From Deltaproteobacteria bacterium (lineage in GTDB: Bacteria; Desulfobacterota; Desulfomonilia; Desulfomonilales; Desulfomonilaceae): a DNA stretch of 45,751 bases. The translations under genes were made by a program, and so were the position numbers. The notes beneath the pieces were generated by a model. That model was not told the origin of the DNA, did not search any database, and saw nothing but the letters and a program-made list of their open reading frames with translations. The stretch lies in contig JAMCYH010000009.1 of NCBI GenBank assembly GCA_023474025.1, positions 1-45,751 on the forward strand, written 5' to 3'. Position 1 is the first letter of the stretch. The number at the start of each line of letters is the position of its first letter. Below are positions 7,430 through 44,971 of the stretch, in pieces.

Positions 7430-8935
7430 ATGAAAAACAAGTTTATTATATATATTTTACTTCTTATAATCACAGCTGCTAACAGTAGTTGTCTGGTGAA
7501 AAACTTTAGCCAATCATCAGAAGATGGTGTAGAGCCTATAAAAGGTTATGGAACGCTTTCAGATTTTCCCTTCCACGAAGCCTGGTACGGGATCTATTTT
7601 CAGGAAGATAAAATAGGTTATAGCCATTTCAAAATAACCCCTGATGGGAACGATTTCCTCATTAAAAGCGATTCAATGATGAGGCTCACCGCCATGCGGA
7701 AAACCAACGAAGTTAAAATGAATGAAAGCATTAAAGTCGCTCCCGATCTATCATTAATTTCTTTTGAATCTACCGTGAATATGAACCAGAAAGAACTAAG
7801 GGTGGAAGGAAAGGTAGAAACTTCAAAGCTTCGACTCAAGATGAATGTTTCGGATGAAAAAGTCGAGAGGGATTTCCCTTTGGACGGAAAAATTTTTCAT
7901 ACTAGCGCCATCTCTCTAATGCCAGCGCTAAAAGGCCTGAAAGAAGGATTAAAATATTCCTTTAACGTTTTCAATGTGGAGCGGCAGGCGATCGAATCAA
8001 TAGAACAGGAAATTTCCAGAGTTAAAGGAAGTCCCGGACCTTCGGGAGCTGTTTGGCGGGTTACGAATAATTACGGGCAGTCGAAGGTTACCTCCTGGTT
8101 GAATCGAAAAGGCTTGGTAGTCCTGGAAAAGGGCCTGGATGGTTCTTTGATCACAATACTTGAAGATGAAGGAGCAGCACAAAAATTTTTGCAGGCGAAA
8201 GTCCGACAGAAGGACCTGATCCTCGATTTCAGTCTGGTTAAATCTCCTGTCCAAATCATAAATCCTGCTAGGACCAAAATGTTAAAAGTGTGTCTCCAAG
8301 GGGTAAAGTCCGATCTTTTTGCACAGGATTATCGCCAAAAAGTTTCCGATTCCAAGGATGGGGTTAACATTGAAGTACATGTGGAAGACCTCCAACATTT
8401 CCAAGAGTCGCAAAAGAGCCCTAATTTCCAGGAAAACGGGCAACAGGAAAAAGATGGACTTTCAAAATACTTAGCCTCAACGACATCCATTCAATCTGAT
8501 AACAAGGAAATAGGTGATCAGGCTCGAAACATCATTTCCAGTAAATTGCCCACTCTTGACAATGTAATAAGGTTAGTAAACTGGACTGCCGACAATATAA
8601 AGGGGGATATGAAAGAGTCGTTTAACTCTCTTGACGCTCTTCATTCCGGCGAGGGTGAATGCAAGTCTCATACAAAGCTGTACGCAGCAATGGCAAGGGC
8701 CGTAGGGATCCCCACTCGTATAGTCACAGGCCTGGTGTATGCCGACAATCTGGGTTTTTCTTATCATGCGTGGGCTGAATCTTATGTGAAAGGATGGTTA
8801 TCAGTTGATCCTACATTAAGACAGGCGCCTTCGGACGCTACTCATATTAAACTTGCTTCTTCGGGAGATGATGACTCCGGAGCGGTGCTTAAAGTAATGG
8901 GAAAAATCAGAATCAGATCATTGGAATATCAATGA
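7430..8935 (+). CDS. Transglutaminase-like (papain-fold) putative lipoprotein
   Basis: A 501-residue exported protein. Residues 1-21 are a signal sequence (basic MKNK, hydrophobic IIYILLLIITAA) ending at NSSC, an imperfect lipobox, so lipid attachment at Cys21 is likely but not certain. The middle is predicted beta-rich and unassigned. The C-terminal third holds the transglutaminase-like catalytic triad: C411 in GECKSHTKLYAAMARAVGIP, H446 in YHAWAE and D460 in VDPT. Such domains in bacteria act as proteases, amidases or cross-linkers acting on the envelope. The substrate is unknown. It is first in the run with selW, the zinc-ribbon protein and the dGTPase, 80 bp upstream of selW. Confidence 0.85.
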   Translation: MKNKFIIYILLLIITAANSSCLVKNFSQSSEDGVEPIKGYGTLSDFPFHEAWYGIYFQEDKIGYSHFKITPDGNDFLIKSDSMMRLTAMRKTNEVKMNESIKVAPDLSLISFESTVNMNQKELRVEGKVETSKLRLKMNVSDEKVERDFPLDGKIFHTSAISLMPALKGLKEGLKYSFNVFNVERQAIESIEQEISRVKGSPGPSGAVWRVTNNYGQSKVTSWLNRKGLVVLEKGLDGSLITILEDEGAAQKFLQAKVRQKDLILDFSLVKSPVQIINPARTKMLKVCLQGVKSDLFAQDYRQKVSDSKDGVNIEVHVEDLQHFQESQKSPNFQENGQQEKDGLSKYLASTTSIQSDNKEIGDQARNIISSKLPTLDNVIRLVNWTADNIKGDMKESFNSLDALHSGEGECKSHTKLYAAMARAVGIPTRIVTGLVYADNLGFSYHAWAESYVKGWLSVDPTLRQAPSDATHIKLASSGDDDSGAVLKVMGKIRIRSLEYQ

Positions 8936-9015
8936 AAATGAACTCAACTTGCAATCCCTTTTACGCGGCAATATAATCGGAAAAAGTGGAGTGGTCTTAA
9001 TAGGAGGAATCATTT

Positions 9016-9246
9016 ATGAATCAGACTTGTAAAATCACATACTGCGGTAGTTGAAGCTATCGTCCAAAAGCCGCTAGTCTGGCGGAAGAACTTACTCGGG
9101 AACTTGGTTTGGAAATCGAACTCATAAAATCAAGTGGAGGAGTTTTTGAAGTTGAATTTGGAGACGAGTTGATTTTTTCAAAAAAACAGGTAGGACGTTT
9201 CCCAGACTTAGGTGAAGTTTTGAAATTAATAAGAACAAAATTGTAG
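9016..9246 (+). CDS. SelW/Rdx-family selenoprotein (UGA = selenocysteine)
   Basis: A 76-residue protein read through one in-frame TGA (9052-9054). It begins MNQTCKITYCGSU-SYRPKAASLAEEL, so the redox motif is C10-G-S-U13 at the position of the CxxU/CxxC motif of the SelW/SelT/SelH (Rdx) thioredoxin-like family. The family's R-x-K/R-A-x-x-L after the motif, the GGVFEVEFGDELIFSKK beta hairpin and the G-x-FP-D signature (GRFPDLGEVLKLI) are all present. AGGAGG at 9002-9007 is 8 nt from the ATG. It would be cytoplasmic and probably a glutathione- or thioredoxin-linked thiol oxidoreductase. Codons after the TGA continue the family without interruption, which argues against a pseudogene. The frame would be ignored or split by standard annotation. 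Confidence 0.9.
9070..9085 (+). promoter_or_regulatory. Candidate bacterial SECIS hairpin after the selW UGA
   Basis: About 16 nt after the UGA a small stem can form, either CCGC/GCGG (9071-9074 with 9082-9085, loop TAGTCTG) or GCC/GGC (9070-9072 with 9081-9083, loop beginning with G). Distance and loop fit the loose bacterial SECIS model. The stem is short, so the call is tentative. Confidence 0.4.
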
Positions 9247-9258
9247 GAAATCGACAGC

Positions 9259-9744
9259 ATGGTTGTTAAATGTTTTAATTGTGAAGCTCTTCTTCGAGTA
9301 GATGAAAAGAGCATTCCGGAAGGCGAGCAGATCAATGTTAGATGTCCCAAATGTGGAAGTGAAGGCATAATCGGCGCAAACCAACATTCATTTAAATCCG
9401 AAACAGATTCCCTCCAACAAATACAGGGGTTAGAATCGAAAATCGTTGAAAAGCCGGTGGACCAAATGAAAGATCAACCTCTTTCCAAAACTGCAACGAA
9501 TTCAAAAGCGGGAGAATTGACTCTCCCCGAAGACGCATTTAAGGATTTCCGGTTTCCTGGGCAAGTTTCCCCGTCGAGTAAGAAAAGCCTATTTGGTGAC
9601 CGAAGGGCGGGCAAAATCTTTTTCTTGATAGCGTCAATTATTGTAGTAGCCATTTTTACCATACTGGTTAATTTGATTCTTCCTGGGATGCCACCAGCGG
9701 ATGTTGAGCATGTGACATCCTCCCAGCATACCCACGCAAGATAA
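9259..9744 (+). CDS. Zinc-ribbon (MJ0042-like) single-pass membrane protein
   Basis: A 161-residue protein. Residues 1-38 form an N-terminal zinc ribbon with C5-x2-C8 and C29-x2-C32, matching the MJ0042/zinc-ribbon-5 pattern (short spacer with K-x-R-C-P-K-C-G). A low-complexity hydrophilic linker of about 80 residues follows, then one transmembrane helix at about 120-141 (KIFFLIASIIVVAIFTILVNLIL) and a short His-containing tail. Such proteins are common in Deltaproteobacteria and have no known reaction. It starts 12 bp after the selW stop, so it is in the same transcript. Function unknown. Confidence 0.8.
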   Translation: MVVKCFNCEALLRVDEKSIPEGEQINVRCPKCGSEGIIGANQHSFKSETDSLQQIQGLESKIVEKPVDQMKDQPLSKTATNSKAGELTLPEDAFKDFRFPGQVSPSSKKSLFGDRRAGKIFFLIASIIVVAIFTILVNLILPGMPPADVEHVTSSQHTHAR

Positions 9745-9811: not shown

Positions 9812-10933
9812 TTGGCTCCCTACGCGTTTCTCTCTCAAAACAGTTCGGGTCGTCAGTGGCCTGAGCCTGAATGCGGATATCGAACGTCATTTCAAAGGGA
9901 TAGAGATAGAATTATTCACTCGAAGGCGTTCCGCCGACTGGAATACAAAACTCAGGTTTTTGCCTATTACGAAGGGGATCACTACAGAACCAGGCTAACG
10001 CATACCCTGGAAGTAGCTCAAATCGCAAGGAGCATAGCACAGTATATCGGCGCTAACGAGGATTTAACGCATGCGATCGCGTTCGCTCATGATTTGGGCC
10101 ACACTCCTTTTGGTCATGCAGGTGAAAAATCTTTACATTACCTAATGGAGGATTTCGGAGGATTTGAGCATAACCGCCAGTCATTGCGGGTAGTTGATCT
10201 CTTGGAAACCAGATATCCAGATTTTCCGGGTCTCAATTTAAGCTTTGAGACCCGGGCCGGCATTATCCGGCATACGACGAGATACGACCGAGCTCCTGAG
10301 GATATGCTAGCAGAATTTCTGACAACTGCCAATCCTACGTTGGAAGCTCAAATTGTAAATATTGCTGATGAGATAGCTTATAGTTGTCATGACATAGAGG
10401 ATGGATTGCGATCCGGCTTTTTCACCGAGCGAGATCTCTCAGACCTTGGGATCTGGAACGAAATTACTGGAATGGTTAAAGAGCGTCTAAAACGAGCAGA
10501 CGAAAATACGTTTCTATATCAATGCATCCGTTTTCTGATAGATTTTTTAATCAGGGATGTTCTTGTTCGAACGGAACAACTCCTAACACTGATCAGAGCT
10601 GAAAAGCCTGAACAAATTATGACTGCTCGCGAAGTTGTGGTTTCGTTTTCAGATAAAATGCAGGAATGGAAAACTCAACTCGACAGTTTTTTGTACAACA
10701 AGTTTTATACTCATTACAAAATCATGAGAATGCAGTACAAGGCTGATCGTTTATTAACGGATCTTTTTCGAGAGTATGTTAGTAGACCGTTTCAATTACC
10801 ACCAGGTATTCAACGACGCATTGAAAAAGGTAACGAATCGGTAGAAAGAATCATTTGCGATTATATTGCGGGGATGACGGACCGGTTTGCTTTAAATGAA
10901 CACCGTAAACTGTTTTTACCGTATGAGTATTGA
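9812..10933 (+). CDS. dgt: dGTPase-like HD-domain nucleotide triphosphohydrolase
   Basis: An HD-superfamily enzyme of the deoxyguanosinetriphosphate triphosphohydrolase-like family, cleaving dNTPs to deoxynucleoside and tripolyphosphate. The family's RTSFQRDRDRIIHSKAFRRLEYKTQVF segment is followed by metal ligands H64 (RLTHTLEVA), H93-D94 (FAHDLGHTPFGH) and a later Asp in NIADEIAYSCHDIEDG. Residue counts start at the TTG at 9812. The frame is open back to 9761, and the extra residues (QEKRERDYLAPYAF) resemble the N-terminus of family members. CTG at 9767 lies 6 nt after GAGGGTGA, so the true start may be a non-AUG codon upstream. It is last in the transglutaminase-selW run and convergent with mobA. 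Confidence 0.92.
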   Translation: MAPYAFLSQNSSGRQWPEPECGYRTSFQRDRDRIIHSKAFRRLEYKTQVFAYYEGDHYRTRLTHTLEVAQIARSIAQYIGANEDLTHAIAFAHDLGHTPFGHAGEKSLHYLMEDFGGFEHNRQSLRVVDLLETRYPDFPGLNLSFETRAGIIRHTTRYDRAPEDMLAEFLTTANPTLEAQIVNIADEIAYSCHDIEDGLRSGFFTERDLSDLGIWNEITGMVKERLKRADENTFLYQCIRFLIDFLIRDVLVRTEQLLTLIRAEKPEQIMTAREVVVSFSDKMQEWKTQLDSFLYNKFYTHYKIMRMQYKADRLLTDLFREYVSRPFQLPPGIQRRIEKGNESVERIICDYIAGMTDRFALNEHRKLFLPYEY

Positions 10934-24597: not shown

Positions 24598-26037
24598 CTA
24601 AGCCGGGTTTGGAACTATTTTCTGGATCAGCGCAATTAGTGAACTCGGATATATGCCTAGCCACACAAGAGCAATAGTTAACAGAACCAGTGCAAATCCT
24701 GCTGCAGCCATTCCTGTCATATCGGAGCCTGTAGCTTCAGAGTTCCCCAAGTCCTTCGAAAACATTACCGATATGATTCGAAGATAGTAGAAGAGCCCAA
24801 TTACACTACTTGCCACGAGTGAAACAACCAGTATCCACAAATGGGAATTTATGCCGGCCGCCATGACATAAAATTTGCCCACGAAACCTGCTGTCAGCGG
24901 GATTCCGGCTAGTGACAAAAGTGTCGCTGAAAAAACCCCTCCCAATAATGGTTGTTTCCAGAACATTCCCCTATAGGAATCAATCAGGTCAGGCTCGGCT
25001 TTGGACCCTGAGAGCGCCGTTATTGCGCCAAATGCGCCAAGAATGGTCACAAAGTAAGCGGCAAGATAATAAGTCACAGCACTGAAAGCCAGATTGCCGC
25101 TTGCAAGGAACGCCGTCAGCAAATACCCGAAATGGGCAATCGATGAATATGCCAGTATCCTTTTGACATAGTTTTGCAACAAGGCCAGCAGGTTTCCTCC
25201 AAACATCGAGGCTACGGCGATAACTGCAAATACGGTTAAAAGCGAATTGTTTGTATGGATACCGATTTTGGTAAAATAACGCAGCATCAGGGCAAAAACA
25301 GCCCCTTTGGATGCGGAAGCCAGGAAAGCCGTTATTGGAGCCGGAGCGCCTTGATAAACATCAGGTGTCCACATGTGGAACGGGACTAAAGACAACTTGA
25401 AACCTAGTCCCACTATAAGCAGCCCTAAACCTGGAAGCAGGAATCCAATGTGGCCTGAATCAAACATCGGAGCAATTCGAGCGAACTCCAATTGACCTGT
25501 ATCCGCATAAATTAGAGCAATTCCAAAAAGCAGAAAGGCGTCAGAAGTAGCAGCCAGTATCAAATACTTGATGCCGGCCTCCAGCCCTAAAGAATCCTCA
25601 GCTTTATACGCGATTAACGCATACAGGGATACACTTAATATTTCCAGGCCAAGGAAAAAAGAAACAAAATGATTGCTTGAGACAACTACCGATGACCCTA
25701 GTGTAGTAAGCAAAAGGAATACATAATACTCTTCTTTTCGGCTTTCTTTTTGCAATTCCAGGTAACGATAGGACAAAAGAGTGACCATTAAAGCTGCCAA
25801 CAAAATAAGCCCAACGAAGAAAATTGAATACCGATCCACAATAATCAGGGGCATCACATATTGGGGAGTTGATTTGTCTATAAATAATGTGGAAATCAGC
25901 GCCAATACCAGGCCCAACCCCGTCAATAGCGCGGTGGTTTGATGATTCCTGTAGAGCGAGATAACTATCAAATTCAATACTACAAATACAGAAACGATCA
26001 ACAACGGTAGGAGCGGTAATAATTCTTGGCCATTCAT
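24598..26037 (-). CDS. nuoN: NADH-quinone oxidoreductase subunit N
   Basis: A 479-residue antiporter-like membrane subunit of complex I with about 14 transmembrane helices. The proton-channel signatures are visible: the conserved glutamate in FLGLEILSVSLYALIAY, the lysine-containing GLGFKLSLVPFHMWTPDVYQGAPAPITAFLASASKGA segment, and VKRILAYSSIAHFGY. Last gene of the nuo operon, 5 bp after nuoM. About 47 bp separate its end from the convergent acyl-CoA synthetase and no clear terminator is visible there. Confidence 0.96.
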   Translation of the reverse strand: MNGQELLPLLPLLIVSVFVVLNLIVISLYRNHQTTALLTGLGLVLALISTLFIDKSTPQYVMPLIIVDRYSIFFVGLILLAALMVTLLSYRYLELQKESRKEEYYVFLLLTTLGSSVVVSSNHFVSFFLGLEILSVSLYALIAYKAEDSLGLEAGIKYLILAATSDAFLLFGIALIYADTGQLEFARIAPMFDSGHIGFLLPGLGLLIVGLGFKLSLVPFHMWTPDVYQGAPAPITAFLASASKGAVFALMLRYFTKIGIHTNNSLLTVFAVIAVASMFGGNLLALLQNYVKRILAYSSIAHFGYLLTAFLASGNLAFSAVTYYLAAYFVTILGAFGAITALSGSKAEPDLIDSYRGMFWKQPLLGGVFSATLLSLAGIPLTAGFVGKFYVMAAGINSHLWILVVSLVASSVIGLFYYLRIISVMFSKDLGNSEATGSDMTGMAAAGFALVLLTIALVWLGIYPSSLIALIQKIVPNPA

Positions 26038-26042
26038 CTCGT

Positions 26043-27596
26043 TTATCTATTCTTTGATCGTTTCAAATTTGCCAGGGTTTTAAAAGAAGCCAGCGAATAA
26101 TGCTTTTCTGTCAGTCTGATTCCGGATTTTTCCCTTATAAACTTTAACGAAGGTTTAGCGATATTCAGAGCTGCCTGAGGGAACAACCCCAGCCACAAGA
26201 TCATAAAGATCATTGATGACATAACCATAGCTTCCCTAGGCCAAAGGTCATGAATTATGCGGTTTTCATCCGAAGGACCGTAAAAAGCTCTGTTTACAAT
26301 CCTTAATGAATAAATTACGGCCATTACTATGCCTAAAGCAGCAGGAAGCGCCATTAACGGATAGGCTTGGTAAACACCAAGCAAGACTAAAAATTCTCCC
26401 ACAAAATTCCCCAATCCGGGAAGTCCGAGGGAAGCTAGAGCAAAAAAGAGCCCGATAGCGCCTATCCGTGGTATTGAGGTCCAGAGCCCACCCATAAAAT
26501 TGAGATCGCGCGTGCCCGTTCGTTCCTGAATCATTCCCACTAGAATGAACAGCGCTCCAGTGCTTATTCCATGACAAATCATCTGCATTACTGCGCCCTG
26601 CAAGGCCAGTTCATTCGATGCGAATATCCCCAAAAGCACGAAACCGAGGTGGCTAACACTCGAATAAGCGACCAACCTTTTCAGATCAGTCTGGGCAAAA
26701 GCCATCATTGCTCCGTATATTATCCCAACCACGCCCATAATCATTGCCGGTGTAGCCAAAAAATGTGTCACCATAGGGAATAAGGGTAGAACAAACCTGA
26801 TAAGTCCATAAGCCCCTGTTTTCAATAGCAAGCCGGCCAGAATTACACTACCCGCGGTCGGCGCTTCAGTGTGCGCATCAGGTAACCAAACGTGGAAAGG
26901 CACAGCAGGAAGCTTTACAGAAAAAGCGGCAAAAAAACCCAACATCATCAGCAGAGACGGCCATTCTGGAAGAGAAGTTCCCAAGAGTTCGAAATAATTA
27001 AAGGTATATACTCCGGTAATTTGTCCGTGACTGAAATAAAGGCCCAATATCGCCATCAGCATCAACAGGCCACCAGCCTGTGTGAATATGAAAAATTTTA
27101 CTGAAGCGTAGATCCTGTTTTCATGACCCCATATGCCAATCAAAAAATACATGGGGACTAACATGACTTCCCAAAACACGTAAAACAGGATCAGATCGGT
27201 AGCCAGAAAGACTCCCACAATACCCGCCAGACAGGCCATGAGATTAAAATGGAAAAAACCTATGCTCGTCCTTATTTCAGTCCAGGAACATAGAACAGCG
27301 GCGATCCCCAAAAAGGCAGTCAGGGCCACCATCAATAAACTCAAACCGTCCATGGCAAGACTGAAGCCAATTCCCAGTTGGGGAACCCATTTTAAATTCG
27401 TGGTGGCTAGCCACGTGGAGTATTCTCCAGGCGCAATTGGATTTGAATGGCCAAGCCACAACACGGCAAGTATGGCAATTTCCAAACCAAGTGCGGCCAA
27501 TGAGATCCAACGTGGCCACAAGTCGCTATAGCGAGCCGAGGTCCAGGCTGCGATACCGGCGAGCAAAGGGATTATGATTAGCCAAATCAAAGTCAT
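26043..27596 (-). CDS. nuoM: NADH-quinone oxidoreductase subunit M
   Basis: A 517-residue antiporter-like subunit. Channel residues in FYVFWEVMLVPMYFLIGIWG (glutamate), FAAFSVKLPAVPFHVWLPDAHTEAPTAGSVILAGLLLKTGAYG, and LKRLVAYSSVSHLGFVLLG are intact. It has a 30-residue C-terminal charged tail, slightly longer than usual. The start overlaps the nuoL stop by 4 bp (ATGA type), so translation is coupled. Confidence 0.96.
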   Translation of the reverse strand: MTLIWLIIIPLLAGIAAWTSARYSDLWPRWISLAALGLEIAILAVLWLGHSNPIAPGEYSTWLATTNLKWVPQLGIGFSLAMDGLSLLMVALTAFLGIAAVLCSWTEIRTSIGFFHFNLMACLAGIVGVFLATDLILFYVFWEVMLVPMYFLIGIWGHENRIYASVKFFIFTQAGGLLMLMAILGLYFSHGQITGVYTFNYFELLGTSLPEWPSLLMMLGFFAAFSVKLPAVPFHVWLPDAHTEAPTAGSVILAGLLLKTGAYGLIRFVLPLFPMVTHFLATPAMIMGVVGIIYGAMMAFAQTDLKRLVAYSSVSHLGFVLLGIFASNELALQGAVMQMICHGISTGALFILVGMIQERTGTRDLNFMGGLWTSIPRIGAIGLFFALASLGLPGLGNFVGEFLVLLGVYQAYPLMALPAALGIVMAVIYSLRIVNRAFYGPSDENRIIHDLWPREAMVMSSMIFMILWLGLFPQAALNIAKPSLKFIREKSGIRLTEKHYSLASFKTLANLKRSKNR

Positions 27597-29485
27597 AGCC
27601 AGGTTAGTAACCCTACCACCAATATTGCGCCAATAGCGATCCCGCAGGCGTATTGTCTGAGTTTTCCGGTTTGGGTAAGACTTAACACACGGTGAACGAG
27701 CTGAACTAGCAGTGCGACAAGTCTGTAAAAACTATCCACAAAATCTGCCTTATTAAGGGTCGTGATCCAAATAAAGGGTTCAATTAACAACTTGTTATAA
27801 ACCAGATCAAATCCCCAACCTGAGCGCCAAAAATTGCGTAGTCCTGAAACAAATGGAAATTCAGAGAATTTTTCAAAATAATCCGATTTCCTCAAATACA
27901 AGAGATAACAAATTGGCGCTCCGGCAATGCAAACAATCGAAGCAACAATTTCGAGAACCAATTCATCGTTAAAATTAGACCCATTTCCACTGAAAGCCGG
28001 CAAAGCGGTGTTCAGGAAATTAGAGAACAAATGTATATTGCCAAAATTACTTGGCAATTCAATGAATCCTACTACAATAGACAAGATCGCTAGCGTTATC
28101 AGAGGAATACGAATTGAAATCCTGGGTTTTCGTTCCAGTGGAGTTCTTGGGGAACCAAAACAGGAAATAAAAACCATTCGAAAAGTATAAAGCGACGTCA
28201 GAAACGCTCCGAAAACTCCACCTGCCCAAATCCATGGGCCTCCTGTAGTCGATGACCACACATCCCATAAAATCAAGTCCTTGCTGTAAAAACCGTCCGT
28301 AACCAGAGGTAGCGCAGCCAGTGATGAAGCTCCGATTAGGAATGTCCAAAACGTAACAGGCAACTGTTTACGAATCCCTCCAAGCTTGAACATATCCTGT
28401 TGATGGCCCGCGGCAAGTATGATCGAACCTGCGCCCAGGAAAAGCAAGGCCTTGAAAAACGCATGTGTAACGAAATGGAAAATCGCGGCTGACCATGCTC
28501 CGACCCCTAGCGCCAGAAACATGTAGCCGATTTGACTTATCGTTGAATAAGCGAGTACCCTTTTAATATCAGTCTGGACCAGGGCGCTAAATCCAGAGAG
28601 TATTAATGTAGTTAATCCGATTATCGCGATGGCGAATTGAACTGCCGGGGCAAGAGAAAACAACGCATTCATTCTTGCTATAAGATAAACACCGGCCGTA
28701 ACCATAGTAGCGGCATGAATTAATGCGCTCACGGGCGTAGGACCAGCCATTGCGTCCGGTAACCAGGTTTGGAGTGGAAGTTGGGCGGATTTGCCCAGAG
28801 CGCCGCCCAGAAGTAGAACTGCGGCAAGTGTTGGCAGCGTTGATCCCACGGCCCAATGTTGAGTCGCTCTGACTGCCAATTCCTGAATTTGCAGTGTCCC
28901 GAGCGTATTGAACAAAACAAACAGGCCAATCGCCATTGCCGTGTCGCCTACACGTGTCATCACAAAGGCTTTTGTCGCAGCCCTAACATTTGAAGGTTCC
29001 TTGTACCAGAAACCAATTAATAGGAAACTGCATAGCCCTACACCCTCCCAACCAAGGTAAAGCATCAGCAGGTTATCTGCTAGAGCAAGAATTAGCATGG
29101 AAGCCACAAATAGGTTCATGTATGCGAAAAAACGACCAAAGCCTTCATCATCAGCCATATATCCAATGGAATACAGGTGAATCAAAAAACCAACTATAGT
29201 AACCACAAGAATCATGCATATAGAAAGAGCGTCTAAATAGAGTCCGAATGTCGGGGCAAAATTACCGATAGTGATCCAGTGCCAGAGGGTTCTGTTGAAG
29301 TGATAATCGGCAGGTGGATTCGTGATGAAGTAAACGGCTATGACTAAACTAATAGCGGCGGCAACCCCTACAGATCCTACCCCTACAACGGATTGGATAC
29401 CGCGGGACAGTCTTGATCCAGCTAGAACTAAAGTTAAAAAACCCAGAATGGGTAAAGCCGGAACCAGCCATAATAGATCGAACAT
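27593..29485 (-). CDS. nuoL: NADH-quinone oxidoreductase subunit L
   Basis: A 630-residue antiporter-like subunit at the far end of the membrane arm. Conserved LYLGWEGVGLCSFLLIGFWY, LLLGGALGKSAQLPLQTWLPDAMAGPTPVSALIHAATMVTAGVYLIAR and the KRVLAYSTISQIGYMFLALG segment are present, with a C-terminal lateral helix region (about residues 540-605) after an extra membrane segment. Normal length. It begins 1 bp after the nuoK stop. Confidence 0.97.
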   Translation of the reverse strand: MFDLLWLVPALPILGFLTLVLAGSRLSRGIQSVVGVGSVGVAAAISLVIAVYFITNPPADYHFNRTLWHWITIGNFAPTFGLYLDALSICMILVVTIVGFLIHLYSIGYMADDEGFGRFFAYMNLFVASMLILALADNLLMLYLGWEGVGLCSFLLIGFWYKEPSNVRAATKAFVMTRVGDTAMAIGLFVLFNTLGTLQIQELAVRATQHWAVGSTLPTLAAVLLLGGALGKSAQLPLQTWLPDAMAGPTPVSALIHAATMVTAGVYLIARMNALFSLAPAVQFAIAIIGLTTLILSGFSALVQTDIKRVLAYSTISQIGYMFLALGVGAWSAAIFHFVTHAFFKALLFLGAGSIILAAGHQQDMFKLGGIRKQLPVTFWTFLIGASSLAALPLVTDGFYSKDLILWDVWSSTTGGPWIWAGGVFGAFLTSLYTFRMVFISCFGSPRTPLERKPRISIRIPLITLAILSIVVGFIELPSNFGNIHLFSNFLNTALPAFSGNGSNFNDELVLEIVASIVCIAGAPICYLLYLRKSDYFEKFSEFPFVSGLRNFWRSGWGFDLVYNKLLIEPFIWITTLNKADFVDSFYRLVALLVQLVHRVLSLTQTGKLRQYACGIAIGAILVVGLLTWL

Positions 29486-29486
29486 A

Positions 29487-29798
29487 CTAGCCCTGGACCT
29501 TTCTTGCCTCGTCTGTATCCAATGTTTTGAATTGGCGATAAAATTGTAATGCCAACGCTAGTCCAACTGCAACTTCAGCCGCAGCGGCCGAGAGGATAAA
29601 AATGAACATTACCTGTCCGTCTATTTGTCCCCATCGGGAACCACTTGCGACGAAAGCTAACCCTGTAGCGTTAAGCATTATTTCAACGGACATGAGCATA
29701 AAAATGAGGTTTCGCCTCGCAAGTACTCCTATAAGGCCTAAGCCGAAAAGAACAGCAGCGGTAATCAATACATGTTCCAACGGGACATTCACGGTCAC
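29487..29798 (-). CDS. nuoK: NADH-quinone oxidoreductase subunit K
   Basis: A 103-residue three-helix membrane subunit. The two conserved glutamates are present in [16 protein letters not shown] and [16 protein letters not shown]. The GTG start overlaps the nuoJ stop by 4 bp (GTGA). Confidence 0.96.
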
Positions 29799-30340
29799 TC
29801 TTTGTCACCCCTCTTTGAAGATGAATCAAGTAACCGTCTGGAACCAATATGATAAGCGCCTACCAAACCAGCTAAAAGTAACATCGACGCAAGTTCAACG
29901 CCAATTGCATATGGTCCGAAAAGCGCCATACCAATTTGTTTTGGAGCAATTTCGGCAGGAGATGAAATCGGGGAACTCCCCGAGTAGGCCATTAAATAAA
30001 TGATTTCCAAAATCAGGATGCCTGAAAGCACAGATGGTCCAAGCCACGAACGAGGCTGTAACAAAACGCCTTCCTGTTTTGTTGATTTCGAACCCAGGTT
30101 GAGCATCATTATCACGAACACAAAGAGCACCATTATTGCGCCAGCGTAAATGATTATTTCAAGGGCAGCCACAAATGGAGCCCCTAAAACAAAAAAGATA
30201 ACAGCTACCGAAAAAAAGGACACTATCAAATATAATAAAGCATGTACCGCATTCAGACGTGTAACTACCATTAACGTAGCCAGAATACCAATAATAGCGG
30301 ATAAATAAAAAACGCCATTCATATTAATGTCCTTAACCAC
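29795..30340 (-). CDS. nuoJ: NADH-quinone oxidoreductase subunit J
   Basis: A 181-residue membrane subunit with five hydrophobic helices. It has the family's [26 protein letters not shown] and [20 protein letters not shown] (with the conserved Tyr-Ala-Gly-Ala pi-bulge region). The hydrophilic C-terminal tail is rich in Arg/Ser. Separated from nuoI by 6 bp; overlaps nuoK by 4 bp. Confidence 0.95.
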
Positions 30341-30346
30341 AATTTT

Positions 30347-30862
30347 TCACGGCTTCAAACTGTAAATGTCTACAGGAAGGCTCTCATTTTCCGATTCACC
30401 CTTACCTTTTCCACCAATGGAAATTCCAGCCACTCTGTAAAAATTGTAGTCATGATATTTCCCTGGGCCGTTGATCAATAAGTGCTCTTTTTCATAGACA
30501 AAATTGGGACGATAATATTCACTCATCTCAAAATCATTGGTTAGCTGTATGGCATAAGTGGGACACGCTTCTTCACAAAAGCCACAAAAGATGCAACGCG
30601 AAAAATTAATACGGAAAAATGCTGGGTATCTTCGCCCATGCTCGTCCTGGGTAGCCTGCAAAGCAATGCAGTCAACCGGACACGCCGCCGCGCAAAGATA
30701 ACACGCCACACAGCGCTCCTGCCCATCGGGATCTCTTGACAGAATTATCCGGCCTCTCCATCTGGGCGGTCGGTTCGGTTTTTCTTCCGGAAAAAGAACT
30801 GTTTCCCGCTTTCTGAAAGAGTGCTTGAATACAGTCCAGATTCCTTTTAACAAGTCAAGCAT
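30347..30862 (-). CDS. nuoI: NADH-quinone oxidoreductase subunit I
   Basis: A 171-residue peripheral subunit carrying clusters N6a and N6b. Two CxxCxxCxxxC motifs: C51, C54, C57, C61 ([15 protein letters not shown]) and C90, C93, C96, C100 ([14 protein letters not shown]). The N-terminal amphipathic segment fits docking to the membrane arm. Twelve bases separate it from nuoH. Confidence 0.96.
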
Positions 30863-30874
30863 TGTAAACCCTAA

Positions 30875-31828
30875 TCAATTTATCGCAATCGCAACAGCGC
30901 CTGTCACCACTATATTAAGCAGCGCCAGAGGGAGCATTAACTTCCAGCCAAATGAGATCAACTGGTCATATCGCAGTCGAGGGAGTGTAGCTCTAATAAG
31001 TATGAAAAAGCATATGAAGACAAAAGTCTTGATTATCATCCAAAGAGGGGGTGGAAGCAAAGGCCCCATCCAGCCGCCAAAGAAAAGAGTTGCTATCAGG
31101 GCGCTGATGAGAGTGACACCCATATATTCACCTACGAAAAACATTCCGAATTTCATTCCCGAATATTCGGTGTGATACCCTGCTACAAGTTCATTCTCGG
31201 CTTCAGGAAGATCAAAAGGTATTCGCCTTGTTTCTGCCAGACCGGCGATCAAGAATATAAGGAAACCAGGAAATTGCGGTATGAAAAACCACATCTTCCT
31301 CTGAGCGTTCACGATGTCGCTAAGATTGAATGATCCTGCAAGTATAATCACCCCGGTCAATGACAACCCCATAAATACTTCGTAACCGAGCATCTGAGCT
31401 GCGGCTCTTAAACCGCCAAGTAATGAATATTTGTTATCGGAAGCCCAACCAGCCAGAGCAACGCTATATACGCTTAATGATGACATGGCGAGGAAAAACA
31501 GCAATCCAATATTCAGGTTAGCTATCTGGATTCCCGGTCCAAAAGGAATGATTGCAAAGGATAGAATGGTTGTCACGACTATAATCGATGGCGCAATTAT
31601 AAATACGGGTTTGTCAGCGAAAGGTGGAATCCAGTCCTCTTTTGTAAAGATTTTTATCATGTCTGCCACCACCTGCAGACTCCCGAACGGGCCAGCTCGA
31701 TTGGGACCGTAACGATCCTGCCACAATCCGAGCAACCGTCTTTCCAGCCAGATCAAACCAGCGGCTGTGGCAAGCACGCCTACAAAAATAGCTGCCAAAA
31801 CTATGATCGATCGGATAGGTTCACCCAT
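30875..31828 (-). CDS. nuoH: NADH-quinone oxidoreductase subunit H
   Basis: A 317-residue membrane subunit that forms part of the quinone site. Signature segments include [45 protein letters not shown], the acidic loop [25 protein letters not shown] and [12 protein letters not shown]. The frame is open 15 codons upstream, but the ATG at 31828 (MGEPIRSII) gives the proper N-terminus and overlaps the nuoG stop by 8 bp. Confidence 0.96.
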
Positions 31829-34550
31829 TTGAGTTTTCCACAATTCTGGCCCATGCGGGTAACTCGATACCATCGAGGTTTGAAATTCCTACGGGTAAGG
31901 CTATTACCCCTCTCGGCAACGAGTTAATAATATGCGCCGGCAGGTTCAGCAAAACATTATCAATTACTAGGCTTACCTTTTCACCTTCTTTTTTGTCTAA
32001 CAAGTCAGCGTCCTGAGAGCTGATTCCTACATATGGTTTAGGAGCCCTTTCGGAGATCGATGCTCCAAATCTACTCAACTCTTCAGAACCAAAAATATGA
32101 AATTTTGGAAGCGCTAGCCATTCTTTGTCTCTATGTCCGTTAGCCTCGGGGATGTCACTAAAATAATTCCACTTGTTACCAGTTGATGGCTCTATTAAAC
32201 GTTTGCCAGGATCGCCTCCGAGAAGAGGACCGTTAATTTCACTTTGAAACTTGTTAACAGATTGGCCTGAATTCCATCCCGGCGCCCAGAATCGTTGAAT
32301 CAGGGACGATGGAGGAATCCCCGGGTAACCCTCCATAGAAAAGGATAACGGTGATTCACTATCATCCGGCGGTTTTGGTTCGTGAACACTTATGTTGGCG
32401 GACATCGAAGTCCGTCCGCTGAATCGATGGGATTGACGCGGAATTTTCTGTCCTATTGCACGGAATTGGGAAGACGGCGCCAATTCGAGAAGAGGTTTGA
32501 AGATAGAAAACTCTCGGGTGATAGATTCACATATACTGTCAATATTGAGTAAATGATCTGTAGCGTCGGGTTTGACGGTTTTAATTATCTCCAGAATCCA
32601 GTTGTGGCTCTCCAGGATTTCACCTGTTTCCGGCATTGCACGGTATAATCGTTGAACCCGGCCCTCACTGTTGACAAAAGATCCTGTTGTTTCAGCAAAC
32701 GTCCCGCAGGGAAAAACCACTTCAGCTTTTTGAATGGTTTTGCTGAACAGGTGGTCAATAACGATGGTGTGTTTACATTTTCGGAGAATGGACTCAACCA
32801 TCTCTGCAGGAGCCCTTCGATAAAGGTCGTTTTCCAGAATGACCAATGTGTCAACCGAATCGCTATTTACTTTTTCGAAGCATTCCCTGAGGCTGCCGCC
32901 GCCCATCAACCCAAGACCCAAACTATTACATTCGGGAACTGTGTAAAACAAACCGGCCTTTTCCCCTTTATCGGATAATGCCCAAGCTACGTTGGCCGCG
33001 GCGTTAATTACCGAAAGAGTCCCCGAACCGGTCCCGGACACAACTAACGGCATAGACGCCTGTTTAAGCGCCGCCGCAATTCTAATCGCCAATTCCTTCA
33101 GATTAGGCTGTAAATCAGCAACCTCAGGCGCTTCGTGATTTATTTCGTGAGCAACCTGGAATCCAAATCTGGCAATATCATTCGGATCAATACGTAATGT
33201 CTCGGTGGCAATGTCGTCAAGTTTTGTAGCAAAAGGGCTCAAAATGAACAAAGGCCCCTTTTTAGATTGAACCGCCTGTCGGACCGCTGCGTCAGCCCAC
33301 CTGGGAATCTTGAGTCTGTCAGCTATTTCCATAGATTTTTGCCGAACTGACTGCCGTAAAGACAATGCCAACCGTGGAGCTGAATTGGTAACATCCTCTC
33401 CAAGAATCAAAACCGCGTCACATAATTCGACCTCTCGGAGCGATGGCGAGTGCACTGGTCCACTGCGCAGAACTTGAATAATCCTGGAGATCATTTTGGA
33501 TTCAGGCTCGGACATTCCCAAGTAAAAATTTTCAGGCCCTACCAATGACCTCAATGAAAAATTGGCTTCCAGCGTAGCCCGAGGGGAGCCCAAGCCGATG
33601 ATACCTTTGCTGGATCGCCATATTTTGGCCAAATGTTCTAGAACTTCAGTTTCCTGAACTGGTTGATTAGAATTCTTTGAGTTATTAGAACTATCTCGAA
33701 TGATAGGTTGCAGCACACGATTGGAGCCATTGACAAACTCATATCCAAAACGACCACGATCACATAGAAAATAACCGTTTACCTCATGATTGTATCTATT
33801 AAGTATCCTGCGAACCGAGCCATATCTTTCACCAACGATCGTGTTGCACCCGAGCCCGCAGTGAGGACAAACTGAAGGCGCAGTCTGTAAATCCCACTTT
33901 CGGGTATAATGTTTTCTAAGGGTTTTGTCCGTGAAGACGCCAGTCGGGCAAACTTCAACCAGATTTCCGCTGAATTCGTTTTCAAGTGTTCCGTCAGCGC
34001 ACCTACCAAAATAGATTCTCTCATGCGCCCCGAAAACATTAAAATCTCTTCCGCCGCAATAGTCTCTGTAAAATCTGACACATCTGTAACACTGAATGCA
34101 GCGGTTCATCTCGTGGTTGATGAATGGTCCTAAATTCTGGTTTAGATATGTCCGCTTCTTGAAACGATATCTACGATAAACATGTCCCGACATTACAGTC
34201 ATGTCTTGGAGATGACATTCCCCACCCTCATCACATACCGGGCAATCGTGAGGATGATTAATCATGAGAAATTCGATTACGCCTGCCCGAAACTCCCGGA
34301 CGTCATCATCCTCAATTGAAATTCTTGTTCCATCGGTAGCAGGAGTCATGCACGACATGACGATTGAACCACGGGTGTCGTTCTCATCCCGAAATTGCTT
34401 TACGGCGCACATCCGGCACGCGCCCACTGCGTGCATAGCGGGATGCCAGCAAAAATAAGGGATATTGAAACCCAGGGAAAGACATGCGCTAAGAAGATTT
34501 TGTCCGTCTTGAACCTGGTAGGGAATATTATCTATAAAAATTGTGGCCAT
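31821..34550 (-). CDS. nuoG: NADH-quinone oxidoreductase subunit G
   Basis: A 909-residue iron-sulfur subunit of the NADH-oxidising arm, of the large E. coli/Thermus type. Clusters: [2Fe-2S] N1b from C34, C45, C48, C67; N5 from H99, C103, C106, C112; N4 from C151, C154, C157 plus a later Cys; and N7 from CPHCGLGCN near residues 228-236 with a partner Cys in FLCDRGR. A molybdopterin-oxidoreductase fold follows (about 280-640) without evident cofactor residues. The C-terminal 200 residues are variable. The same architecture is shared with formate dehydrogenase alpha subunits, but the position between nuoF and nuoH settles the identity. Confidence 0.96.
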
Positions 34551-34553
34551 CCC

Positions 34554-35828
34554 TTATCTCCACGGACACCGCTTATCTCTGATGTGTGTATCAAAGTCTT
34601 CCCTGAAAAATTTTAATGCGCTTCGCAGGGGCTCCATTGCGCCAGGAGCTAATGCGCAAAAAGTTCTACCAGGACCGAGCGCTCGTATGTGAAATTCAAG
34701 TATCTCAATATCGCCGGGTTCGCCTTTTCCCTCTTCAATCGCTTTGAGGATCTTGGCTGTCCAAGGCAATCCCTCCCGGCATGGAGTACACCATCCACAC
34801 GATTCTCTCGCAAAAAAACTCTCCAGATTGTGAACCATTCCTACTGGACATGTATGGTCGTCCAACACGATCATCGTGCCTGTGCCAAAACGGCTCCCTG
34901 CCTTTTGAACCGAATCGTAATCCATCGGAACGTCCAAATGTTGTTCCACGAGGAAATCTGTAGAAGCTCCACCTGGAAGTGTTCCACGAAATTTTAATCC
35001 GTCTAGCATGCCTCCGGCATGTTCTTCGAGGATTTCCCTGATGGTTGTTCCCATAGGAAGCTCCCAGGCCCCGGGCTTCTTAACTTTTCCGCTAACACCA
35101 AAGATTTTCGTCCCGCCATCTTTACATTTGCTCAGATTCTTGAACCATACTGCGCCATTATTAATGATGTGGGGTATGTTACAAAGGGTTTCAACATTGT
35201 TTAGCAGTGTAGGCATGCCCCAAAGGCCTGACTCTGTCTGGCGTGGAACCTTGTGCCGTGGAACAGCCCGATTACCTTCAATAGAATTGGCCAGCGCAGT
35301 CCCCTCGCCACAGATATATCTGCCCGAACTAACGTGTAGCCTAAGTTCAAAATTAAAGCCCGATCCCAAAATGTTGAATCCTAGATAACCTTTTTCATAC
35401 GCTTCCTCGATAGCCTTTTTGATACGTTTAGCGGCTAGAGTATATTCAGATCGTATAAAGATGTAACCAATTTCAGTATCCACTGAGTAAGCGGAGATTA
35501 TCAGTCCCTCAATCAGTTGATGAGGGTTTCCTTCCATCAATATACGATCTTTAAATGCTCCTGGTTCCATTTCGTCCGCATCAGCTATCAGATATCGAGG
35601 TCTGGGACTGTTTTGTAAGGAGGGCATGGAACACCATTTAAGGCCGGTTGGGAAACCAGCGCCGCCTCTCCCCCTAAGGTTCGAATCTTTCACCAGTTGC
35701 AAAATATTGTCAGGGGTCAGAGTCCTGAGAGATTTTCGGCAGGCTTCATAACCACCGACTTTCTCATATTCGGACAGGTTAAGTGGGCCTCCGCCAATTG
35801 TAATGTGTTTAGTTAGAGGTCGCTCCAT
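34554..35828 (-). CDS. nuoF: NADH-quinone oxidoreductase subunit F
   Basis: A 424-residue flavoprotein that binds FMN, NADH and cluster N3. The FMN/NADH glycine-rich segment is LRGRGGAGFPTGLKW (about 51-65), and YICGEGTALANSIEG and ESCGWCTPCREG (N3 cysteines near residue 342) with a further Cys in FCALAPGA follow. In place of the usual GEETAL the sequence has GEGTAL, so the first Glu of EE is changed to Gly; that Glu is implicated in setting FMN/NADH reactivity, so it may alter the flavin site. Three bases separate it from nuoG. Confidence 0.95.
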   Translation of the reverse strand: MERPLTKHITIGGGPLNLSEYEKVGGYEACRKSLRTLTPDNILQLVKDSNLRGRGGAGFPTGLKWCSMPSLQNSPRPRYLIADADEMEPGAFKDRILMEGNPHQLIEGLIISAYSVDTEIGYIFIRSEYTLAAKRIKKAIEEAYEKGYLGFNILGSGFNFELRLHVSSGRYICGEGTALANSIEGNRAVPRHKVPRQTESGLWGMPTLLNNVETLCNIPHIINNGAVWFKNLSKCKDGGTKIFGVSGKVKKPGAWELPMGTTIREILEEHAGGMLDGLKFRGTLPGGASTDFLVEQHLDVPMDYDSVQKAGSRFGTGTMIVLDDHTCPVGMVHNLESFFARESCGWCTPCREGLPWTAKILKAIEEGKGEPGDIEILEFHIRALGPGRTFCALAPGAMEPLRSALKFFREDFDTHIRDKRCPWR

Positions 35829-35839
35829 TTATAGATTCT

Positions 35840-36304
35840 CTATTCGTAACTCCGAAGTATAGCTTCGATTTTATCCCGGTCCAGGTAACCGTACAATTGC
35901 CCGTCGATCATGATTGCGGGGGCCTGTTCACATGCTCCGAGACATTGGATAGGCAATAAAGTGAAGCGGCCATCGTGCGTTGTTTCGCCGAAATCTATGC
36001 CAAGCCGTTTCCTGATATAATCGAGAATGTTTTCAAATCCCATTATCCAGCAACTCACGCTGTCACATACAAGAATTATGTGCCGCCCTACCGGCCGTCG
36101 GTAAATCCGGTTATAAAAAGTTGCGACCCCATCCACTTCTTCAACGGTCAAATTCAGGAATTCAGCTACTTCCCTGAGCTGTTCGTCAGAGATCCATCCA
36201 TGAGACCGCTGAACAGTTTGAAGGGCCTCCAGGATTGCGCAACGGTCAGTGGGACATGAATTCAATCCGCACTGAATTTCGGATTTTATTTCATCAGATA
36301 GCAT
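35840..36304 (-). CDS. nuoE: NADH-quinone oxidoreductase subunit E
   Basis: A 154-residue thioredoxin-like [2Fe-2S] protein (cluster N1a). Cysteine ligands are C80 and C85 (CDSVSCW) and C121 and C125 (CLGAC), the standard C-x4-C...C-x3-C arrangement. The N-terminal helical part has HGWISDEQLREVAEFLNLTVEEVDGVATFY. Presence of nuoEFG shows the complex uses NADH (or ferredoxin-linked pairs) directly rather than being the truncated 11-subunit form. Confidence 0.96.
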   Translation of the reverse strand: MLSDEIKSEIQCGLNSCPTDRCAILEALQTVQRSHGWISDEQLREVAEFLNLTVEEVDGVATFYNRIYRRPVGRHIILVCDSVSCWIMGFENILDYIRKRLGIDFGETTHDGRFTLLPIQCLGACEQAPAIMIDGQLYGYLDRDKIEAILRSYE

Positions 36305-36312
36305 TATTGATA

Positions 36313-38091
36313 TTACCGATCCACGTCAGCCAGCACGTAATCGACACTCCCCAGAATCGCAATAAGGTCCGCAATTGTTAACCCTTTGGAAATATAGGGC
36401 ACCATCTGAAGATGGGCGAATGACGGAGTACGTATTCGCGTTCGATAAGCCATTGTGTTACCATCACTTATCAAATAATAGCTATTTGCGCCTTTGGTCG
36501 CTTCGATCCTGGAAAAAGACTCGCCGGGTTTGACCACAGGCCCCCAACTAACGCTGAGAAAGTGCGTTATAAGTGTCTCGATATCTTTCATAGTATGTTC
36601 TTTAAGAGGTGGGGTAGCCAGAGGATGATCAGATTTGTAAGGTCCTTCCGGCATATTTTTCAGACATTGTCTTATGATCCTTAGGCTCTGTCGCAACTCT
36701 TCTACTCTGACAACAGCCCTGTCATAACAATCTCCCTTGCTTGCGACAGGAACATCAAATTCCAGTTGATCATAACCTGAATAGGGTCTTTTTTTACGAA
36801 AATCCCAATCAAGTCCGCAGGCTCGTAATCCGGGGCCGGTTACTCCCCATTCTATCGCGTCATCCAGAGTGTATGTTCCGACTCCTTGGGTCCGAGCTTT
36901 GAATATCGGATTTTGCATGACCAACTTGTCATATTCTGCCAGCCGTGCAGGAAAGTATTCGATGAATTCACTGACCAGTCTATCCCATCCCTTGGGAAGG
37001 TCCTGTGACACCCCGCCGATTCTAAACCAGGCCGGATGCATACGTCCGCCGGTTATCGCTGAAACTATTTCAAAAACACGTTCTCTATCGTTGAACATGT
37101 AAAATACCGGAGACATAGCTCCTAGATCCTGAGCAAACGTGCCGTACCATACCAAGTGGCTAGAAATTCGAAAAAATTCAGCCATCATGATTCGGATCAT
37201 TTGCGCTTTTTCGGGGACTTGAATTCCGGCAAGACTCTCTGCTGCCTGAACATAGGCGAAATTATTCATAACGCCGCCAAGGTAGTCTATCCTGTCCGTG
37301 TAAGGTATGAATGTGTGCCAGGATTGGCGTTCCGCCATCTTTTCCGCCCCCCGGTGGTGGTACCCGATATCCATCACCGCATCAGCTATCTCCTCCCCAT
37401 CAAGAGCAAGTATTATCCGAAGGAGCCCATGAGTCCCGGGGTGCTGTGGACCGAAGTTCAGAAACATGAGATCGGTGTCTTGACCTTCGGATTTCATCCC
37501 CCATTCTTCGGGATTGAACTGCAAATCTTTTTCCAGAGACTCCGCTTTTTCTTCCGGGAGTTGGAAAGGTCCCATTTCTGTGGCTCTAGCCGGGTGTTCC
37601 TTACGCAAGGGGTGCCCATTCCAGGATGGTGGCATGAGAATTCGTCTGAGGTGAGGGTGACCTTCGAACTTTATGCCGAACATGTCCCAGATTTCACGTT
37701 CATACCAGTTAGCGGATTGCCAGATATCGACAATACTCAAGATTGAAGGATTTTCGCCTCTCAGAGGGGTTTTGACGCGAATATCCGAATTTCGGTCAAA
37801 AGACAGCAAATGATAGACGATGGTAAATTCACTGCCTGGCTGACCCTTCCTGTGTGAACGAAGCCGCTCGTCAATGGCGGTCACGTCGTAAAGCATCCTG
37901 TAAGGTTTAGAAATGCCGGTCTTTAGATAAGACAAAATTTCATGAACTTTTTGAGGGGTGACCCAAACGGTTGGAATATCATCCTTCGTAGTTTGGTCAG
38001 AAAGGATCCATTCACCAAATAGATTCTGTAAGTCCTGGAGAATGTCGGTAGTGAGGTCCATGAGATTTGGTAAATATCTCCTAAAGTTCAT
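36313..38091 (-). CDS. nuoCD: NADH-quinone oxidoreductase subunit C/D fusion
   Basis: A 592-residue fusion. The N-terminal 190 residues are NuoC (30-kDa type, ERE[IV]WDMFGI..GHP.LRRIL motif: [25 protein letters not shown]). The remainder is NuoD (49-kDa type) with [22 protein letters not shown], the [12 protein letters not shown] quinone-site region, and the C-terminal G-S-[VI]-D segment. The fusion occurs in enterobacteria and many Deltaproteobacteria. The ATG overlaps the nuoB stop by 11 bp. Confidence 0.96.
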
Positions 38092-38716
38092 CCGGGGATG
38101 GCAACGTGGTGACCTGCCTTCTGCTGCAGGCCTTAAGGTCTCTCATGGATGGTCTAGGGGGACGGATAATATTTTGAGGACCTGCAAATCTGCTCAGAGG
38201 CCTTCGTTCATTGCCCACCATTTCCTGAAGGAGAGTTAAACCTTCGAGGAATGCGTCAGGCCGAGGGGGACATCCAGGCACATAAACATCTACAGGGAGG
38301 AATTTGTCCACGCCCTGAACTACGCTGTAAATATCATACATTCCGCCGGAGTTGGCGCAGGAACCCATGGAAATTACCCACCGAGGCTCCATCATTTGCT
38401 GATACATTCGTCTGATTATAGGGGCCATTTTTATGAAGACAGTGCCAGCTATAACCATGAGATCAGCTTCTCGAGGGGTTCCTCGAAGCACTTCCGCCCC
38501 AAAGCGCGCGACATCGTACCTGCTTGTAAACGCAGTAGCCATCTCGACATAACAACATGACAAACCAAAATTAAAAGGCCAGATCGAATATTTACGACCC
38601 CAGGCGATTAAATCCTGAGCCTTGGTGAAAAGCACACTTGAGCGAACGGCGTCTTCAACGGCATCAGTTTTTGATGACCGTGAATCTGAGTGAGGTTTTG
38701 TCAAGGTCCAACGCAT
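38081..38716 (-). CDS. nuoB: NADH-quinone oxidoreductase subunit B
   Basis: A 211-residue subunit carrying the terminal cluster N2. Ligands are the tandem C54-C55 (GLSCCYVEM), C120 ([13 protein letters not shown]) and C149 ([10 protein letters not shown]). The C-terminal tail of about 45 residues is longer than in short NuoB proteins and basic. A 94-bp gap separates it from nuoA. Confidence 0.96.
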
Positions 38717-38810
38717 GACAATCGTTTCGTCTCCGTGGAATTACCCTAAATAATCATCAATTTTTCCCAACAGCTACAAGGTGGTCGGTTGCTGACTAAA
38801 AGCCACTGCA

Positions 38811-39191
38811 TTATCTTTGTGCGGCCCTTTTATTCCCCCGTAGTTCCAGTGCCCCAGAACGCCACAAATACATAAGTGAAATAGCGAGAACAATTATGAA
38901 AACTAAAATTTCCAGATAACCAACCCAACCCAACTCACGAGCAGCTACTGCCCATGAAATGATGAAAAGAGTTTCTAGATCAAAAATCACAAAGAAAACT
39001 GCTATTAGGTAAAAAGTGGCGTTGAAACGAACATGAGCCGAACCGGTAACAACCATCCCAGACTCGTAAGGGTCACCGGTAGTTCTCTCTTTGTGACTTT
39101 CCCCAAGCAAATAAGAGAGCCCGACCATAATAATTGCAATAGCGATCGCAGCAAAAAAATAGATGGCCAAAGGCCAGAGGGCTGTATTCAA
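38811..39191 (-). CDS. nuoA: NADH-quinone oxidoreductase subunit A
   Basis: A 126-residue, three-helix membrane subunit. Family block LLGESHKERTTGDPYESGM...ARVRF-like (HVRFNATFYLIAVFFVIFDLETLFIISWAVAARELG) is clear; the acidic DLET in TM2 is conserved. The start is TTG at 39191 with GGAG 8 nt upstream (MNTALWPLAIYFF); a TTG at 39251 would add 20 residues but has no ribosome-binding site. First gene of the 13-gene operon. Confidence 0.9.
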   Translation of the reverse strand: MNTALWPLAIYFFAAIAIAIIMVGLSYLLGESHKERTTGDPYESGMVVTGSAHVRFNATFYLIAVFFVIFDLETLFIISWAVAARELGWVGYLEILVFIIVLAISLMYLWRSGALELRGNKRAAQR

Positions 39192-39505
39192 AATGTGGTC
39201 TCCGCATTCTTGCCCAAGTATTATTCCCTCAAAGGCTTTAGAGTATAACAATATAACATAACATTTTCGATTTCAATTTTTGAAGGATGCTTCTTAACTA
39301 CTGAGCTTACGTAACCCTAAGCAAAGTAGCCCCTTTTGACTCAGAATGCTCACCATATTTTTACGATTATAGCTCAGGAACCTGCTTGAGGCGGAGAGCG
39401 GAATTTCCGTAAATTCCTTGATTCGGAAAGCCTGCATTATAGCGCCAAACTGTGACAAAGAACCACCAGGTAGCTCGAAATAGTGTTCATCGAATGTGTG
39501 ATGCC
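39192..39505 (-). promoter_or_regulatory. nuo operon leader region (promoter not pinpointed)
   Basis: A gene-free 314-bp stretch between nuoA and the upstream secreted-protein gene on the same strand. On the minus strand it holds two perfect TATAAT hexamers (39436-39441 and 39366-39371) but neither has a good -35 at 16-18 bp. The transcription start of the nuo operon is likely here. Confidence 0.4.
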
Positions 39506-40986: not shown

Positions 40987-41038
40987 ATGTGCGAATCCGG
41001 CACATAGTTTAAAAAGATAAAGTGTCATTTTCGCACAT
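40987..41038 (-). repeat. Inverted ATGTGC/GCACAT elements at the 3' end of the regulator gene
   Basis: ATGTGCGAA (40987-40995) is repeated inverted as TTCGCACAT (41030-41038, inside the last codons of the regulator gene), and GCACAT recurs at 41000-41005 making a smaller ATGTGC-N7-GCACAT hairpin. No T-run follows on the minus strand. It could be an RNA 3'-end structure or operator. Confidence 0.35.
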
Positions 41039-42878: not shown

Positions 42879-42898
42879 TTCAGCCTCATTGTTTAGAA

Positions 42899-44968: not shown

Positions 44969-44971
44969 AAT

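Follow-up and report, generated by a model that had tools for sequence, protein, structure and literature searches.

A SelW-like selenoprotein gene very probably read through an in-frame UGA in a member of the Desulfomonilaceae

Background

SelW-like selenoproteins are established in some bacteria, as the original prediction for this locus stated, and the Sec form has long been known in Deltaproteobacteria. Zhang et al. 2006 (PMC1794560) describe such proteins in Geobacter sulfurreducens, Desulfotalea psychrophila and others, and propose Sec as the original form. According to the same paper and the GOS survey (PMC2398784), Cys forms of the protein are mostly absent from Sec-using bacteria. For the Epsilonproteobacteria, PMC4607533 describes SelW genes missed by annotation, with a covarying SECIS of 5–6 bp and an invariant G in the loop.

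Here we analyze a SelW-like gene in a 45,751-nucleotide stretch of DNA (contig JAMCYH010000009.1 of assembly GCA_023474025.1, positions 1 to 45,751; hereafter the window) from a Deltaproteobacteria bacterium of the Desulfomonilaceae. The gene has the CxxU motif, the small Rdx domain and the UGA with a downstream hairpin found in the bacterial SelW-like selenoproteins of PMC1794560 and PMC2398784, and it differs from them only in species and gene neighbourhood. With the Epsilonproteobacterial SelW it shares its best NCBIfam match, NF041051, and a history of being missed by annotation, although it comes from another phylum and the two hairpins are likened by description. In fold and sequence it matches the solved SelW-related proteins of Cys or Sec type (2obk, 2fa8, 2p0g, 3dex, 2ojl, 2oka and mouse SelW, 2npb), although identity is 25–37% over the aligned part. 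Both SelW-like selenoproteins in Deltaproteobacteria and their omission from annotation have already been published, and the window gene is in this respect correct but ordinary. It leaves our knowledge of Sec decoding unchanged; its value lies in an annotation correction, the gene being absent from the ORF list made under translation table 11, and in giving the selenoproteome of a Desulfobacterota-like lineage a well-supported SelW whose SECIS covaries.

The gene and its product

The SelW-like (Rdx family) gene occupies 9016..9246 on the + strand, from the ATG at 9016 to the TAG stop at 9244-9246, and encodes a protein of 76 residues (MNQTCKITYCGSU...) once the in-frame TGA at 9052..9054 (+) is taken as residue 13. 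Translation and comparison with homologues place this codon as Sec13, the U of CGSU (C10-G-S-U13). An AGGAGG ribosome-binding site can be read directly at 9002..9007 (+), 8 bases 5' of the ATG, and 12 bases separate the gene from the downstream zinc-ribbon ORF that starts at 9259. The reading frame, the ribosome-binding site and the tight spacing are all as originally described. So is the prospect that standard annotation would miss the gene: the table 11 ORF list has no + strand entry of at least 60 aa at the locus. The protein has no match in phage records (E <= 1e-5).

Profile searches were run with C entered at position 13. Pfam Rdx (PF10262) matched residues 5-73, spanning the TGA, with 73.6 bits (cut-off 22.6, E 1.5e-20); the best NCBIfam match was NF041051 (SelTWH_Campy, 95.3 bits against a cut-off of 88), and TIGR02174 scored 63.9 bits against 34.2. 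All three exceed their curated cut-offs, which bears out the earlier assignment to the Rdx/SelW family, and a search of the raw genome returned the same single Rdx match, with one internal TGA. A sequence search of the PDB gave 8 distinct matching sequences. In the AlphaFold2 model, made from 28 aligned sequences (pLDDT 87.1, pTM 0.71), a strand at residues 4-10 carries CGSU (C10/U13) at its end; C10 and position 13 are invariant across the 28-row alignment, in which U was written as C. The top Foldseek matches of the model are SelW-related bacterial proteins (TM by query 0.85–0.94, E 1e-7 to 1e-6), followed by mouse SelW (2npb, TM 0.75). The protein is accordingly modelled with the thioredoxin-like Rdx fold.

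Selenocysteine machinery of the genome

The original prediction implied that the host has the Sec machinery, and a search of the genome found selA, selB and tRNA-Sec, with selD as a fragment at a contig end. SelA is present with E 2e-149, and SelB scores 403.5 bits against a cut-off of 242. The tRNA-Sec gene (selC) scores 68.4 bits against a cut-off of 47, and ARAGORN agrees, giving the anticodon tca (UCA). The SelD match (211 bits) begins at base 3 of its contig, being cut by the contig end. Other Sec codons are apparent in the same genome: its formate dehydrogenase alpha gene (FdhA) has one TGA, in the motif CARLUH, and a second, partial formate dehydrogenase alpha gene has a TGA in the same motif.

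Among the 33 related genomes with a TGA-bearing Rdx gene, SelA is above its cut-off in 32 and tRNA-Sec is present in 27; the one without such a SelA, G089, is 82% complete. Neither SelA nor tRNA-Sec is found in G131, which carries a CxxC form. This co-occurrence is consistent but weak, because SelA is present in 131 of the 148 relatives anyway.

A SECIS-like hairpin downstream of the UGA

A SECIS-like hairpin lies at 9071..9085 on the + strand, with a stem formed by 9071-9076 and 9080-9085 and the loop GUC at 9077-9079; drawn with a five-base loop, the latter reads AGUCU. Sixteen bases lie between the TGA and the stem (6 bp, 16–21 bases after the TGA), and the loop position falls inside the range of 16–37 bases given in the available text of PMC10778597. 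The 25-base stretch with the hairpin folds at -7.6 kcal/mol (z -1.82, with 7 of 200 shuffles as good), and longer folds around it are of ordinary stability (z 0.1 to 1.2 in five folding windows).

Homologous loci were compared in an ungapped alignment anchored at the UGA. A count over 39 sequences, which left out 8 loci with fewer than 5 of 6 pairs and 5 clostridial loci, is biased in that its rows were partly picked for pairing, and it was replaced by counts over 52 distinct loci and over 28 loci of the phylum. Dropped before all hairpin counts were L049 (in the wrong frame, and re-read as L096), L042 and L029 (identical to L050 and L051) and L021 (a Cys form). The counts also exclude L090-L096, of which L092 is the same as G011 and L052, the latter being in the 52-locus count.

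At the 52 loci, 89.4% of stem cells pair, against 78.1% in shuffles, and both sides have changed in 39 cells, where 12.9 were expected; for neither measure was any of 500 shuffles as high. When the partner strand is slid, pairing falls to 18.6–51.3%. The 28 loci of the phylum behave similarly, with 95.8% paired against 90.7% and 9 double-changed cells against 1.9. Since kin sequences without structure can beat column shuffles, a synonymous-codon null was added: pairing is complete at 31 of the 52 loci, whereas 2000 resamplings, which preserve the protein but not the relatedness of the DNA, average 2.7 such loci and never exceed 10. The pairs 9072/9084 and 9075/9081 each link two third codon positions, and they co-vary. 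Covariation and the synonymous null point to a SECIS-type hairpin that closely follows the UGA and has a G near the start of its loop. With its closing pair, the loop is mostly [A/G]GU[C/U]U (33 of 39 loci), which resembles the GGUCU of the FdhA hairpin in the window's own genome.

Within the window, the covariance model R1 found the known site only (54.7 bits; the runner-up had 11.2 bits, E 0.61). It did not find the FdhA SECIS in L097 and is too specific for finding SECIS elements in general. For 11 loci of the Tissierellia/Clostridia type, a second register seemed to fit, but its covariation is no higher than in shuffles: 66 of 500 reached its score, and 77.3% of cells paired against 76.2% expected. 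At the clostridial-type SelW loci (L056, L057, L059-L061, L063-L066, L068 and L070, with L062 outside the set), the hairpin may sit 4–5 bases nearer the UGA.

Conservation of the UGA codon and competing readings

An Rdx match was present in 36 of 148 related genomes, with one internal TGA in 33 and no stop in 3. Read at the protein level, the TGA stands at CxxU in all 33 of the former, and the three stop-free relatives (G131, G113 and G145) all have CxxC. In named genomes, which include Deltaproteobacteria, a Cyanobacteria MAG, Firmicutes, Chloroflexi and others, U was found at 26 of 26 loci; these overlap the set of relatives, L050, L051 and L052 being the records G002, G001 and G011 respectively. 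The homologue search used patterns derived from the query, so that the loci are close relatives by design.

One alternative is that a Cys-type Rdx gene has had its TGT or TGC misread as TGA through a sequencing or assembly error, or that the gene is a decaying pseudogene. The assembly is indeed fragmented (353 contigs, 86% complete), but the same codon is TGA in every TGA-bearing relative and at all 26 named loci, and a TGA that recurs in genomes of other species is no sequencing error. Moreover, comparison with six relatives of the genus gave 7–14 differences at first, 4–9 at second and 23–29 at third codon positions after the TGA; the frame past this codon is therefore under selection, since third positions vary most. 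Error or decay is highly improbable, and, judged from the sequences compared, the conservation of the TGA has already refuted it. Another refuter named in the original prediction, TGA assigned to Trp, also failed. In a reassignment to Trp (or Gly), TGA would be a sense codon in this organism; yet it ends 12 of the 27 well-supported window genes, including the gene just upstream (TAA ends 10 and TAG 5), and is therefore not a Trp codon, and the same genes hold 168 TGG codons. Moreover, relatives without the TGA have Cys rather than Trp at this position, and the genome encodes a tRNA-Sec whose anticodon is UCA. We found no support for such a reassignment, whose chance is vanishingly small and which is already refuted.

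Standard annotation would take a different view, namely that there are two short ORFs, or that translation mainly terminates at the UGA and the second half is made from an internal start. Sec insertion does compete with termination. Nevertheless, a single Rdx domain runs across the TGA, with the active-site Cys before it and the body after it, and we consider separate products very unlikely.

The locus thus very probably encodes a SelW-type protein with a C10/U13 redox centre, through a UGA read as Sec with the help of a SECIS hairpin and the genome's sel genes. The computations established family and fold, conservation of the UGA and coding constraint past it, covariation in the hairpin and the presence of sel genes, and so support the prediction of a SelW/Rdx selenoprotein hidden behind an in-frame UGA. 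The gene product would be a small soluble protein of the SelW type with a thioredoxin-like fold. During translation, UGA codon 13 would be decoded as selenocysteine, with SelB delivering Sec-tRNA-Sec while held by the SECIS hairpin that starts 16 bases past the UGA; the Sec-tRNA would be supplied through SelA and selenophosphate from SelD. We infer that Sec is inserted in this organism. By homology, the C10/U13 pair, where the first strand ends, would form a selenol/thiol redox centre, and the most likely role would be that of a reductase or a thiol-exchange partner in an anaerobe.

Gene neighbourhood

Upstream of the SelW gene, at 7430..8935 (+), is a conserved neighbour encoding a transglutaminase-core protein, a probable lipoprotein from its lipobox-like N-terminus as seen by eye. 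The conserved downstream neighbour at 9259..9744 (+) encodes a small zinc-ribbon protein that has, by eye, a hydrophobic stretch at its C-terminus; its zinc-ribbon match is weak in Pfam (26.5 bits, under the cut-off of 30.3) and over the cut-off in NCBIfam (25.8 bits against 20.9). A further conserved neighbour at 9812..10933 (+), with a listed TTG start, matches profiles of deoxyguanosinetriphosphate triphosphohydrolase (dGTPase). Its frame is open upstream from 9761, and the homologue in L050 begins further upstream (VIIDRNIQEKRERDYLAPYAF); the true start is probably earlier than the listed TTG and a codon other than ATG.

In 14 regions from relatives in the genus or family, SelW is followed by the zinc-ribbon gene in 13 and by the dGTPase gene in 12, and is preceded by the transglutaminase gene in 11, with all four genes together in 10. 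The L081 and L083 regions are cut by contig ends, and L088 (G013) lacks all three neighbours. An ORF for a membrane protein lies between SelW and the zinc-ribbon gene in L082, L084, L085, L086 and L089; two of these five were scanned, and both matched EI24/CysZ (PF07264; 132.8 and 133.9 bits). A similar membrane-protein ORF is found downstream of SelW in L088. In the window's own genus, no EI24/CysZ-like gene separates SelW from the zinc-ribbon gene. At the other 23 named loci (L053-L075) these neighbours are absent, L075 having only a distant ileS paralogue. From these comparisons the block appears as a lineage trait of the organism's own bacterial family, kept across its genera. The neighbours named in the original prediction (a transglutaminase-like lipoprotein, a zinc-ribbon protein and a dGTPase) are thus as described, the lipoprotein by eye, but the putative operon, which it called unusual, is a stable trait of the family and not a peculiarity of this genome.

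Nothing relevant to this neighbourhood block turned up in the literature listings searched. It is conceivable, though unlikely, that transglutaminase-lipoprotein, SelW, the EI24/CysZ-like protein where present, zinc-ribbon protein and dGTPase form a real functional unit in which SelW has a redox task at the membrane or envelope. If so, the block would provide the first assignable partner set for a bacterial SelW. We know of no settled substrate for bacterial SelW, so that its conserved neighbours here offer a modest lead.

Other features of the window

A TGA read-through scan of the window with a crude Cys/Sec motif filter returned a long list, mostly of frames overlapping real genes, and no second CxxU Rdx-like case. 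On the - strand, a complex I cluster extends over 24598-39251, with antiporter-type subunits, NADHdh, matches to NuoG-, NuoF-, 49/30-kDa, 20-kDa and chain-3 subunits, and small ORFs. Consecutive genes at 41025-45727 (-) encode a sigma-54 response regulator, a PAS histidine kinase and a protein with a RACo C-terminal (ASKHA) match. Finally, a long, near-perfect inverted repeat at 1487-1543, terminator-like by eye, lies behind a small acidic ORF (about 1294-1471).
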